Of a DNA stretch of 64,000 nucleotides, positions 40,010 through 45,608 are shown one piece after another. Under the pieces are notes generated by a model, which saw nothing but the letters and a program-made list of their open reading frames with translations, did no database searches and was not told the origin of the DNA. The stretch's first letter is position 1. Every line of letters begins with the position of its first letter. The position numbers and the translations under genes were made by a program. The DNA comes from Candidatus Uhrbacteria bacterium (GTDB taxonomy: Bacteria > Patescibacteriota > Patescibacteriia > 2-12-FULL-60-25), in contig JADZFU010000002.1 in the NCBI GenBank assembly GCA_020854265.1, forward strand, positions 31,746 through 95,745, given 5' to 3'.

Positions 40010-40456
40010 TTACTGGCGCGAGAATACCAGAACCACGCCATCATCCGAGGTCATGGTTAGCACGTTGTTTTCGTGTGAAAGCTTGTAGCCGCTTGCGAGA
40101 CTACCCGTGAACGCGCTCTCGGCCTCGCCCATGACGCCGGCACAAAACATTTTGGTGGAAATAACGGTCGGGGCTTTTAAGACATCGTTTTCGTCAACGG
40201 TATAATCCCCGCTCATATTGTTGCAGACCTTGCCGGACATTTTTGTGCCGTCAAACGTAATGGTGAGGTCAAACTCGCTGACGTTTTTGGCTGCTGCCGA
40301 ACCCTGCTTCATGGAGGTCATTTTCCATGTGTCTTTGATGGCGTCGCTGATATTGTCGTACGCCACGGTTTCGGGAACTTGCGGTGCAGCTGGTTTATCC
40401 CAGCAACCGGCACCGAGTAAAGCAACCACGGACAAAGTAGCGAGTATGCGTTTCAT
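40010..40456 (-). CDS. META-domain (HslJ-like) lipoprotein
   Basis: LLGAGC lipobox; DLTITFDGTKMSGKVCNNMSGDYTV...TKMFCAG. Confidence 0.7.
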   Translation of the reverse strand: MKRILATLSVVALLGAGCWDKPAAPQVPETVAYDNISDAIKDTWKMTSMKQGSAAAKNVSEFDLTITFDGTKMSGKVCNNMSGDYTVDENDVLKAPTVISTKMFCAGVMGEAESAFTGSLASGYKLSHENNVLTMTSDDGVVLVFSRQ

Positions 40457-40470
40457 ATAAATGCATTGTC

Positions 40471-40490
40471 ACTCCCGCGCAGGCGGGAGT
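40471..40490. repeat. REP/dRS3-like palindrome copy a
   Basis: ACTCCCGC GCAG GCGGGAGT; inverted orientation relative to the other copies; both-arm (compensatory) T>C/A>G change. Confidence 0.8.
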
Positions 40491-40501
40491 CCAGAGCTTT
40501 A

Positions 40502-40938
40502 TTTGCAGAGGGTGTTGCACGAGTATTGCAGAGAGGGTGAGCCGTCACCCTCTCTGCACTCTCCCGCTGCGCACGAGACTGCGATCCTCGCATGGCTGGC
40601 CATTCGCTGTGGCCTCGCGCGGGTAACTCCTCGTCCTCAATAGATTTCTTTTCGTTTCGTACTCGTCAAACACCCCCGCGCGAGCTACGGCCTTGCTCAT
40701 GGGCCATGCTCCGGTTCTCGTAGTGCGCGTTAAAACCCGCCCGTGTGAGCACCGGAAAACGGCATGGCGAGCCAAAGCGAATCTGCGAGGCGGTGTCTGA
40801 CGGCCCGCGACACAACAAAAACTATTGAGGAGCGGGCCTAGTTCGCCGAGCAGCTGCAGGCGAGGCCTAAGCCGTTTGAGGAGCGAGACGAGGGCGGCAC
40901 GAGGAGTGCAGAGGGTGTCGTGCAACACCCTCTGCAAA
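40502..40938. mobile_element. Candidate non-autonomous TIR element or structured non-coding element
   Basis: Perfect 21-bp terminal inverted repeats TTTGCAGAGGGTGTTGCACGA at 40502-40522 and 40918-40938; subterminal hairpins 40527-40558 and 40907-40936. Confidence 0.55.
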
Positions 40939-40944
40939 AGAAGT

Positions 40945-41739
40945 TTATCGAACCAAATTTCCTACATTGATGAACGGCGTCGCGCCGGATCCCATCACGG
41001 ACGGGAGCTTGCCATCCCACTTTTCAAGTGCGCGGAGTTCAAGAATTTGCGGGCTCGACTGGAGAGCGGCGCTTTCGATGCGCAAAGCCTCGGCTTTACC
41101 GCGTGCCTCGGCGATTTGCTGTTCGGCTTCGAATTTGATCTGTTCGAGTTTGTTTTTGGCGGCAAGCGCTGACTGCTCGGCCGTTACCTTGAGCTCAATA
41201 GCTTGATCAAAAGCAGCGGAGAATTGGAAGTCGACGATATTGAAGTCGTCGATGAGAATACCGCGCGGCTGGAGCTTTTCGACAAGGTGGGCCTTGATCG
41301 CATCGCGCACTTCCTCGCGCTTTGTGATCAATTCTTCGGCCGTGTACTTGGCTGTCGTGGACTTAACAGATTCCTGAAGCGCCGGATCAATCAAGCGGAC
41401 ATTATAATTAATACCAATCTCCTGATAGATATTGGCAACGCGAGTCGGGTCGATGTGGTAGTTCAAGGCGACCTTGGAGTTGACGGTTTGGAGGTCCTTG
41501 GAAGCAGCCGTGGCAATCACCTCTTCTTTTTGGATTTTGACGTCCATGATTTCTACTCGGTCCATGACAGGAATGCGGACGTAAAGACCTTCATTCAAGA
41601 CCTTGCCCGTAACAGCACCCCAGCGGAGCAAAATACCGCGTTCACCAGCGCCGACGGTGCCAAAAGGCCAGGCGATGACCAAGATCATGACGGCAAGAAT
41701 ACCGACAACAAAGCCAGAAACGAGAATGGGAGTTTTCAT
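40945..41739 (-). CDS. SPFH/prohibitin-family membrane protein
   Basis: MKTPILVSGFVVG TM; GVNPGERGI-like GAGERGILLRWG; SALAAKNKLEQIKFEAEQQIAEARGKAEALRI. Confidence 0.9.
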   Translation of the reverse strand: MKTPILVSGFVVGILAVMILVIAWPFGTVGAGERGILLRWGAVTGKVLNEGLYVRIPVMDRVEIMDVKIQKEEVIATAASKDLQTVNSKVALNYHIDPTRVANIYQEIGINYNVRLIDPALQESVKSTTAKYTAEELITKREEVRDAIKAHLVEKLQPRGILIDDFNIVDFQFSAAFDQAIELKVTAEQSALAAKNKLEQIKFEAEQQIAEARGKAEALRIESAALQSSPQILELRALEKWDGKLPSVMGSGATPFINVGNLVR

Positions 41740-41841: not shown

Positions 41842-43977
41842 TTAGTTTGCTCTCTTGCAAAAATTCACAAACTCATCTTTAGTCAGAGTTTTTTCACTCC
41901 CTCCGGCGTACTGAAAAATCCGCCAACTTTCATCGCGCATGATTGGCAAGTAGAATATCTGCCCGGTTATTTTTGATGCTTGCTTAAACGCTTTTTTTAA
42001 TTCTTCTAATTTTGCTCTGTAGATGTTGTTATCAAAACCACCAGCTACAGTAGATGATATATTAACGCTTTTCACTTCAAAAATATGTATTCGATCAAAA
42101 CTGTCTTTCATTACAAAATCAGGATATGAGGAATGCAGTGCACCGAGATAATACTCAAACTTTATCGGCGAGTTCGCAACATAATTTTTACCCCACAAAT
42201 ATATTTGTTTTGCTTCTAATATTTCTGGCTCTTTTTTACCGAACAGATCAACAGCTCCGGCTTTTGGATTCTGCTTGCCAACAGTTACTCTTTTACCAAC
42301 TCGCGCAGCGCCAGCCGGTACATCATCTTTTACAAGGTCTTTTAAAATACTTGTCCACGCACGCTCCGCTTCGCTATCAAATGCAAACTTCTCTTTTCCG
42401 TCGTTTCGTTTCCATACCCAGTCGCCAATATCTACATAATTACCATTATCCGTATAATGTGAAGTCGGGGCAAAAGATACTTCTACCTCTTTTCCGTTTT
42501 CGTCTCTTACCACTTCCATGCTTTCTTCATAATCATTCACATAGTGACTGCTTTCACTTGCCACCGCCTCAATATTCTCCGCGAACTCACACCATTTTGC
42601 GTAAGTTGTCGCATAATTTTCGCCCATTTCTCGCACGCTGTTTTCGGCTTTTACAAAATCTCGCCACAAAGCAAAAATGGAACTCGGAGCAGGTACCACA
42701 GCTTGCTCTCTCAGGAAAGTCGCCAGATTAAAACTTGTCTTTTTCGTTAAAGGCTTTAGTCGTGTTGTTTTAATCCTGATCTCATCGGTAATGATTTTAC
42801 TATCCTGCCACAATTTCACACCAAAACTCTTTCGTAAATCTTCGGGAACAATCCCCCATATCCACGCGGTCATAGCAAGTTTTTGTGCTTCTTCTCCCAA
42901 CTCTTCAAAATCAAGTAGTCGCGGGTTGCGCCTTACTCGACCCATCACTTGTTCATCCAACTGTTTGCTCTTACTGTCCCGCATTTGGAAAAGCATACAC
43001 GCACGGGGAATATCCCACCCTTCGGTAATCACCATTTTGAAAATGATAATATCAATTGTGCTCGAGTTTTCTTTAGCATAATCTTTCCACTTGCTAACAG
43101 GCAGCTTTTTTGCCTTAAAAGTATCGTTCGTGTCGCACTGCTTCTCGTCATTGACAATCAGCATCCACTTCAAGTCTGCATGTTTAGCTTTTGCCAGCTC
43201 TTTTTTTATCTCGGCAATCTCCTCGTCCGCCTTGTCTTTGTTGCTAATCTGGATAATGAGGCAAGGGTTTACACCCAGCAGGTTGCGATAATCTTTTTTC
43301 ACTTCTGCAAACTTTTCAATCGGGTCCGCTACACTTATGTTTTGATCATCAATTAACTCAATATCTTTAATTAGTTTCGCATTCACTGCGTCATCATTTT
43401 TAATCTCTACATCAGGGTGTTGTCCGCGCGAAAGTTTTGGAGTAGCAGAATAGTTGTATATTTTAGTAAAAAACTTTTGCGATAGGTTGTCTAGATTATT
43501 CGTGGCAATATGGCATTCATCCTTGATCAAATAGACTTTTCTCTCTTTTCCTCCCAGCATCTGCCCGCTTGTCATATCATGCAAAAATCCTTCCATCGCC
43601 CCTTGCATGAGACGTCCGCGCTTTTTATACAAATCTCGGGGCAAAAGATACACATTGTATTCGGTTGGCACAAACAACCGTTCTTCACCTGCAACCTGGC
43701 TACTTATTAGGTACGGCTTTAATTCTGGAAAATTACCCTTAGCAGAATATTCTTGAAACTTCTCATAATTTTGTATGGCTAAATCACCTTTTGAAAGCGT
43801 GGATACGAGAAAAACCACATGTTTGTCCATAGACAAAATGCGGTTCATCATATCCGCCATCATATAGGTTTTACCACTTCCGGTAGGCGCCTTGAAAGTA
43901 ATCTCCTCTTGCTTAGAGGTGAGTTCAACAAGAGCTGAGACAGCGTTTTTTTGTAAGTCTATAGCTTCTTGCTTCAT
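41842..43977 (-). CDS. res: Type III restriction enzyme Res subunit (DEAD/DEAH helicase + nuclease)
   Basis: APTGSGKTYMMADMM, IKDECHIATNN, VITEGWDIPRACMLFQMRDSKS, QVMGRVRR; C-terminal YPDFVMKDSFDRIHIFEVKSVN (PD...EXK). Confidence 0.9.
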   Translation of the reverse strand: MKQEAIDLQKNAVSALVELTSKQEEITFKAPTGSGKTYMMADMMNRILSMDKHVVFLVSTLSKGDLAIQNYEKFQEYSAKGNFPELKPYLISSQVAGEERLFVPTEYNVYLLPRDLYKKRGRLMQGAMEGFLHDMTSGQMLGGKERKVYLIKDECHIATNNLDNLSQKFFTKIYNYSATPKLSRGQHPDVEIKNDDAVNAKLIKDIELIDDQNISVADPIEKFAEVKKDYRNLLGVNPCLIIQISNKDKADEEIAEIKKELAKAKHADLKWMLIVNDEKQCDTNDTFKAKKLPVSKWKDYAKENSSTIDIIIFKMVITEGWDIPRACMLFQMRDSKSKQLDEQVMGRVRRNPRLLDFEELGEEAQKLAMTAWIWGIVPEDLRKSFGVKLWQDSKIITDEIRIKTTRLKPLTKKTSFNLATFLREQAVVPAPSSIFALWRDFVKAENSVREMGENYATTYAKWCEFAENIEAVASESSHYVNDYEESMEVVRDENGKEVEVSFAPTSHYTDNGNYVDIGDWVWKRNDGKEKFAFDSEAERAWTSILKDLVKDDVPAGAARVGKRVTVGKQNPKAGAVDLFGKKEPEILEAKQIYLWGKNYVANSPIKFEYYLGALHSSYPDFVMKDSFDRIHIFEVKSVNISSTVAGGFDNNIYRAKLEELKKAFKQASKITGQIFYLPIMRDESWRIFQYAGGSEKTLTKDEFVNFCKRAN

Positions 43978-43979
43978 AA

Positions 43980-45608
43980 TTATTTGCCTTCAAGGGTTTT
44001 GGTGGTGCTTTCAAAATTTTCACACACCCATTTTATTTTTTCATTCACTCCGAGTTTTTCCTTGCCATATAATGTTTCGTCTATTTGCTTAAATGGTTCA
44101 TCAGAATACGGCGCCACCGTGGCAATATCGTAGACATCAAGGTTATCGCCGAGAGTCTTATTGTTTTCAATCCATTTAAAATCTTTATCACCATTTAAAG
44201 TTTTTCCAAGCATTATTCTGCGAAGTCTTTCAACAGTTATTTCGCTTAAAAGGTGTGGCCGTTTTAATTTGTCACACAAATTTATTTGTTTTTTTATTGT
44301 GCTTTCTTCTTTTTTATTATCAGCAATGACTAAAAGAGAATTATCTAAATTTTCATCTAATTGAACGCCAATAAAAATTCTTGCGCCTTCATCGTTTTGA
44401 TTCAATTCCAATACCGCTTGTCCTGTTGTCCCAGAACCCATGAAAAAGTCTAAAACAACCGCATTGTTATCTTGATATAATTCCAACAGTCTATAAATCA
44501 AATCGACAGGTTTAGGAAAATCAAACACTTCATCACCAAGTATGTCAACTACCATCTTTCTTCCAGTAATTGCAGTATGAACGTCAGTAAAAAGACTGCT
44601 TTGAATCAGCCAATTATTTGAATTGGGGAATATTTTTAGTCTCGGAACTCCGTCCCCGTTTTTTGAAAAATATATATCATTGTTTTTAATTGCTTCTTCA
44701 TACTCTTCTTTTGATAAAGTCCAGTTTCTTGTGTATGTTTTTCCCGTCGGGGTTGTTATTGTATAATATTTACTTCCTGTTGTTGATTTAATTCCATTTC
44801 TTGACATGTTTCCAGAAAACCATCCCCCACGAGGATCATTGTCAGGATTTGAAAAATCGCTTTCTATTTCAAAGTTTCTTTTAGAAGCATATTTTCCAAA
44901 AGATTTTTCACCCATAAAATATGCCAGTATGTATTCGTGTTCTTTTCTAACGGTTTTAGAGGCGGTTTTAACAAAAGAAGTTTCACTTTTATCTTGTAAG
45001 CACCATATATAGGTTTCTCCTTTGCTTTCACCGAATACCTCATCAAACAATCCTTTCACATACGCCTGATTTTTATCGTCAATACTACAAAAGATCACAC
45101 CATTATCACTCAAAAGCTGGTGGGCGAGGACAAGGCGCGGGTAAAGCATTGAAAGCAGATTGTCCCGCGTGATCGCATTCTCATAATTCGTCTCGGCAAA
45201 CTCGCCCATACTATCTTTGCCGTAAGGCGGATCAATATAGATCACATCAATCTTGCCACGGTATTCAATGAGGAGGTTGTGCAGGGCGTCATAGTTGTCG
45301 CCGATGATGAGCTTGTGCGTAAGCGCGTTTTTGTCTTGCACAAAACTCAACTTCTCATTTTTCTTGAAAAACTTAATCGTGTCGGTCATTTTCTCCAGTC
45401 GTTTGTCAAAATGAAAGCCGGTGCGTTTATAGGTGGTGCCGAGTTCAGCAATCATTATGGCCTCGTTGATGGTTTCGGCTTGCTCGATGAGTTTTTTCAA
45501 GAGGTCGGCATTCGTCTTTTCTATAATCTTGTCAGCAATACGCTTGTCTATCTCCGCAACAAGATCGTCTTTAACTTTTTTTATGTTGTTTGTCATAGAT
45601 TTTTCCAT
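43980..45608 (-). CDS. mod: Type III restriction-modification DNA methyltransferase, Mod subunit
   Basis: DVIYIDPPYG (DPPY) then VVLDFFMGSGTTGQAV (FxGxG), beta-class order; directly upstream of res. Confidence 0.93.
   Translation of the reverse strand: MEKSMTNNIKKVKDDLVAEIDKRIADKIIEKTNADLLKKLIEQAETINEAIMIAELGTTYKRTGFHFDKRLEKMTDTIKFFKKNEKLSFVQDKNALTHKLIIGDNYDALHNLLIEYRGKIDVIYIDPPYGKDSMGEFAETNYENAITRDNLLSMLYPRLVLAHQLLSDNGVIFCSIDDKNQAYVKGLFDEVFGESKGETYIWCLQDKSETSFVKTASKTVRKEHEYILAYFMGEKSFGKYASKRNFEIESDFSNPDNDPRGGWFSGNMSRNGIKSTTGSKYYTITTPTGKTYTRNWTLSKEEYEEAIKNNDIYFSKNGDGVPRLKIFPNSNNWLIQSSLFTDVHTAITGRKMVVDILGDEVFDFPKPVDLIYRLLELYQDNNAVVLDFFMGSGTTGQAVLELNQNDEGARIFIGVQLDENLDNSLLVIADNKKEESTIKKQINLCDKLKRPHLLSEITVERLRRIMLGKTLNGDKDFKWIENNKTLGDNLDVYDIATVAPYSDEPFKQIDETLYGKEKLGVNEKIKWVCENFESTTKTLEGK

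Follow-up and report, generated by a model that had tools for sequence, protein, structure and literature searches.

The gap between an SPFH gene and a META-domain lipoprotein gene of a Candidatus Uhrbacteria genome is filled by a 437-bp element with a perfect hairpin near each end, and the question is what kind of DNA this is. A preliminary description, made from the sequence alone, had offered two answers: a non-autonomous transposon of the MITE kind, or a structured non-coding RNA of large size whose closing stem is the terminal inverted repeat (TIR). We have analysed the element both within its window, meaning the whole stretch of 64,000 nucleotides that contains it, and across related genomes. 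The source genome (G000) has 1.0 Mb in 7 contigs.

Anatomy of the element

The features of the locus, in window coordinates, are:

40010-40456, minus strand: gene of a META-domain lipoprotein, flanking the element opposite SPFH (PF03724, 7e-17)
40502-40522, plus strand: left outer inverted repeat TTTGCAGAGGGTGTTGCACGA, matching in inverted form the right hairpin's outer arm plus loop; in this copy only
40527-40558, plus strand: left terminal hairpin, stem 40527-40540/40545-40558, 14 bp perfect, 4-nt loop GCCG
40527-40602, plus strand: modelled 5' part of the left module: hairpin, then C-rich stretch, then CTGCGATCCTCG motif
40569-40730, plus strand: long irregular stem of the left module with internal loops and an apical helix (RNAalifold and pair counts on alignment A1, helices 2-7)
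40863-40936, minus strand: right module, a diverged inverted copy of the left module that ends in the right hairpin
40907-40936, minus strand: right terminal hairpin, stem 40907-40918/40925-40936, 12 bp perfect, 6-nt loop
40918-40938, plus strand: right outer inverted repeat, exact reverse complement of TTTGCAGAGGGTGTTGCACGA
40945-41736, minus strand: SPFH/Band 7 gene (PF01145, 5e-34), stop 6 nt from the element (7 nt in the preliminary description)

The coordinates and sequences described earlier for the 21-bp repeat, the 14-bp and 12-bp stems, the CCTCAATAG pair and the GGCCCGC pair are all correct. The inner 21 bp of the outer inverted repeat are perfect and the repeat extends to 26 nt at 92% identity; it is the only pair of perfect inverted 21-mers at most 5 kb apart in the window. 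Likewise, apart from the two terminal hairpins, no perfect hairpin in the whole 64 kb has a stem of at least 12 bp and a loop of 3-8 nt (mean of ten first-order Markov windows: 0.0). The base composition is indeed unlike that of the neighbours, with a GC content of 0.61 in the element and 0.51 in the flanks, and against dinucleotide shuffles the fold of the whole element has z-scores of -9.3 and -11.0 on the two strands. The basal helix CGCGCC/GGCGCG of the irregular stem is disrupted in the window copy.

Nothing indicates that the element codes for a protein: its 130-aa minus-strand frame has no match in Pfam, a search of the genome contigs with its peptide found no encoded relative, and the related copies have no open frame of comparable length. 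Thus, the view that no convincing protein is encoded stands, and the protein homologue that had been named as evidence against it was not found.

Two further features of the neighbourhood were observed. A short palindromic repeat, CACTCCCGCGCAGGCGGGAGTCCAGAG (40470-40496), abuts the left side of the element and has a second copy (89%) at G000:C4:229322-229349; we take it to resemble dRS3-type intergenic repeats. Immediately upstream of the SPFH gene are two genes, res- and mod-like, of a restriction-modification system that resembles type III (41842-45608, minus strand; PF04851, PF01555).

A dispersed family of inverted modules

In its own genome the element is single-copy, with no other place carrying these ends at E 10. 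A DNA search matched one of 57 relatives, Candidatus Uhrbacteria UHB N2_1 (G014), which belongs to a different genus of the same family and has at least seven dispersed copies; this genome was also the only match in a search of genome contigs with the hairpin pattern. The reading as a one-off palindromic region is therefore removed and, with a dispersed family shown, the absence of a second copy that the preliminary description had named as its own refutation falls away.

The inspected copies are all intergenic, as judged by inspection of open reading frames, but vary in their arrangement relative to the neighbour genes, some lying upstream of genes. One G014 copy is found directly 3' of the SPFH gene, the same place as in the window. 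At the window copy, a transcript read from SPFH would carry a very stable structure 3' on that mRNA. The two genomes of the same genus as the source, G001 and G002, lack the element at the SPFH locus and have no match elsewhere: in G002 the SPFH gene is followed by a different palindrome and then another gene, in G001 by that gene directly. This leaves two possibilities for the SPFH copy: an ancestral origin followed by loss or replacement in G001 and G002, or two separate gains. The window copy has probably been in place between SPFH and the neighbouring gene for a long time and is likely immobile by now.

The unit of the family is a module of about 100-200 bp in which a C-rich linker joins a perfect terminal hairpin to a long irregular stem. 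Full elements, found in the window genus and in G014, have ~300-440 bp and consist of two such modules in inverted orientation, with hairpins at both ends (in G014, for example, a left hairpin TGCAGGGAGGGTGA-GTCG-TCACCCTCCCTGCA and a right hairpin TGCAGAGAGGAAA-GCGC-TTTCCTCTCTGCA). This architecture follows from a covariance model, R1, that was built from left ends only; right ends are in the training set of neither R1 nor the second model, R2 (below). R1 matches the right ends of G014 copies on the opposite strand with 49, 44, 44 and 40 bits and the window right module (40865-40936) with 27.0 bits (E 2e-4); the window left module (40527-40602) scores 88.7 bits, its sequence belonging to the training set. 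Half-elements occur as well: the G014 copies C10 and C24b are left modules only and end after the basal GGCGCG. The TIR of the preliminary description is the right hairpin's outer arm plus loop, present a second time in inverted form outside the left hairpin. Other copies of the family do not have this extra repeat, and it is not what defines the ends of the family.

A search of 41 genomes of the family for the TGCAGRG-hairpin pattern found three copies in G031, and these led to further ones in G035, G060, G061 and G062. In sequence the copies of these genera are very different, yet their layout is the same and their stem carries a GCGNTNCTCG-type motif. The model R2, built only from this group, scores 33.5 bits (E 7e-7) for the window right module, 22.1 bits (E 7e-4) for the window left module and 22-33 bits for the G014 copies; unrelated control loci were silent save one match with an E of 0.04. 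In the reverse direction, R1 finds G031 and G035. The profiles thus link, in both directions, the window and G014 elements with those of two other genera of the family; the homology of the two groups rests on profile matches and layout, and plain DNA comparison does not join them. Locus L086 in G005 (33 bits with R2) may be a further, short member.

An R1 scan of 384 genomes of the class, run with stricter filters that may miss weak members, gave no credible match in the ~340 genomes outside the family: the only two matches there, in G373 and G044 from two other families, are apparently chance, both lying within putative coding genes. The genus-g15 element has DNA matches in G281, G291, G319 and G340, which were rejected as short purine-rich or end-hairpin-like stretches, and plasmid and phage sequences had no match to the element.

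The right halves of genus g15 (L091, L093, L097, L098) differ: they have a conserved GAGCCAGGAC..TTTG.AAATGAGTA...AAAGAGAGAGCG within a GGGGCC/GGCCCC helix and an end hairpin CCACTTTTG/CAAAAGTGG, and their loop conservation looks RNA-like. Near an element copy in G035 there is a SAM riboswitch (RF00162, 52.6 bits, L093 2158-2296).

Pairing, spread and competing explanations

When the full copies are aligned, 91% of the cells are paired, and compensatory changes that alter both sides occur in 26 of the 83 consensus pairs. Shuffles gave 9.6 such pairs and reached 26 in 0 of 500 cases, and slid controls gave at most 7; the consensus structure came from the same alignment as the pair counts, which favours pairing somewhat. 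The left module alone has compensatory changes in 12 of 52 pairs, and its terminal hairpin in 4 of 14 across the family. Pairing is maintained while the sequence changes, and the covariation that the preliminary description had proposed to look for on homologues is present. Template switching during replication can also create and maintain hairpins with compensatory changes (PMC8794818), and maintained pairing alone is therefore no proof of an RNA function. Of the proposed large RNA closed by the TIR, the paired structure with covariation is retained; the TIR is secondary and peculiar to the window copy.

Evidence for spread comes from G031, where unlinked copies are 94-99% alike and two of the three copies, at unlinked places, share an internal deletion between GATGCTCG repeats, which is what copying of the short form itself would produce. 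Near-identical copies at unlinked loci need some copying process; together with the common deletion, patchy presence and intergenic positions they speak for dispersal. Several results speak against it. No adjacent direct repeat beyond chance, as a target-site duplication would leave, was found at the window copy and four full G014 copies (the test was confined to the window and G014 rows, leaving out the genus-g15 copies). No autonomous element with the same ends is present in G000, and all G014 matches are short elements, so that the suggested search for a transposase sharing these ends came back empty in both genomes; G000 has no Y1 transposase (Y1_Tnp) either. Among close relatives we saw no pair of empty and filled sites and observed no transposition event.

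G014 encodes a RAYT-like protein of 173 aa (NF047646 with E 1e-14, below the curated cut-off; PF01797 with 25.6 bits, cut-off 23), and its gene (L143, G014:C10 at ~46.7 kb) lies on the same contig as an element copy, ~17 kb away. The hairpin of the element was not found beside this gene, and that the protein is involved in the spread of the element is a guess. The coding sequence contains a different palindrome of its own, GTAGGGGCGACGCA/TGCGTCGCCCCTAC, read as VGATHASP. G031 has a short Y1-like fragment (a 55-aa frame) and, separately, an interspersed repeat of ~54 bp (CCTGAACCTCTTTTGTCATGCCACGGCTCCCG...) in at least 8 places, twice beside the hairpin element (L083, L085; G031:C1 174235, 619055, 690432, 985734, 1262217, 1371608).

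We consider the element a member of a non-coding palindromic interspersed repeat family that is specific to one Candidatus Uhrbacteria family and has spread non-autonomously, as a mobile element without a transposase, with a probability of about 0.6. The mobile form would be hairpin-forming single-stranded DNA on which an enzyme acts in trans, a mechanism proposed for REPINs; the terminal hairpins would be the ends recognised by this enzyme, which would be absent or unrecognised in G000. Against mobility, the SPFH position common to two genera fits retention better than it fits the usual behaviour of an active mobile element, and the copy numbers are low, from 1 to about 7.

The main rival, which we regard as unlikely, is a large structured RNA, either a 3'-UTR element or an independent non-coding RNA, with its fold under selection and the copies being paralogous RNA genes. 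In its favour are the strong folds (z of -9 to -11 in the window and -4 to -8 in two G014 copies), compensatory changes well above the slid controls, the similar internal-loop motif GCGNTNCTCG at the sides of the stem in all genera and the same position after SPFH in two genera. However, the element has only sub-threshold chance matches in Rfam at a relaxed threshold and belongs to no known family there; its presence is patchy, with half-elements, deletions and varied arrangements relative to neighbour genes; and template switching could also yield the covariation. On the forward strand, G-U and A-C departures from pairing number 2 versus 7, 4 versus 7 and 2 versus 4 pair columns, none significant: they lean, if anything, to the strand read from SPFH, and the lack of a significant strand preference is as expected of a DNA palindrome. 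We give little weight to a variant in which a structure-conserved module with the GCGNTNCTCG-type loop acts as RNA or as a protein-bound cruciform, kept at SPFH in two genera while its sequence drifts.

Alternatively, the copies could be neutral quasi-palindromes that serve no function and have no enzyme of their own. Template switching would then have preserved and sharpened them, and recombination would have moved them. The lack of a transposase partner agrees with this, as do the G031 deletion between short direct repeats and the extra half-hairpin outside the left end of the window copy, which resembles a product of template switching or slippage; the near-identical unlinked copies with their need for a copying process, and the module layout conserved between genera, make it quite improbable. 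That the element serves the SPFH operon as a transcription terminator or insulator is very improbable: several relatives (L060, L061, L066) do have a normal intrinsic terminator 5-15 nt after SPFH, where the right hairpin sits here, but a scan found no intrinsic terminator in the element, neither hairpin is followed by a T-tract, and other copies lie upstream of genes.

Comparison with known repeat systems

The closest layout is that of REPINs and REP doublets (Bertels and Rainey 2011, PMC3116915; Di Nocera et al. 2013, PMC3733652): in both, two inverted hairpin-tipped units flank a structured spacer, and both are non-coding, extragenic, dispersed and found as singlets and doublets. REP units have 20-40 bp, however (PMC3116915, PMC3733652), whereas those of the element have ~100-200 bp. 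No unpaired GTAG or CGTC tag of the REP type was seen, the hairpin foot being TGCAG or (T)AAGGGG, and instead of the linked RAYT of a REPIN there is none in G000 and none adjoining any copy, with copy number low. As size, tag and transposase linkage fail, we do not class the element as a REPIN, despite its REPIN-like layout.

Bacterial MITEs and intergenic repeat units (Correia, enterobacterial RU-1 to RU-3; PMC2229807, PMC2759123, PMC6382973) are, like the element, short, palindromic, non-coding and intergenic with inverted ends; the element differs from MITEs in the lack of a target-site duplication and of an autonomous partner and in ends that are hairpins rather than simple TIRs. The element has inverted ends (21 bp and perfect in the window copy, inverted hairpin modules elsewhere) and dispersed copies (at least 7 in G014, 1 in G000), so that from the earlier MITE-like label the dispersed non-coding repeat family survives; strict membership of the MITEs, which are of the DDE-transposase type, fails on the missing duplication and partner.

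The ends of IS200/IS605 elements and their non-autonomous derivatives have subterminal hairpins and no target duplication, as does the element, but its two ends are inverted copies of each other and it has no associated Y1 transposase. Large bacterial structured RNAs such as GOLLD, ROOL, OLE and HEARO are comparable in size class, strong fold and covariation; the element differs in being multi-copy and modular and without an Rfam match.

What is known of dispersed palindromic repeats comes mainly from larger genomes, mostly those of proteobacteria, and our literature search turned up no publication that describes such repeats in CPR bacteria. This previously unnamed family of hairpin-tipped intergenic repeats is best called a new bacterial palindromic interspersed repeat family. 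With no transposase apparent, it endures in Uhrbacteria genomes of 1 Mb and keeps its pairing despite divergence between genera, which makes it a test case for how such repeats are maintained: by a transposase in trans, by selection on the fold or by template switching.
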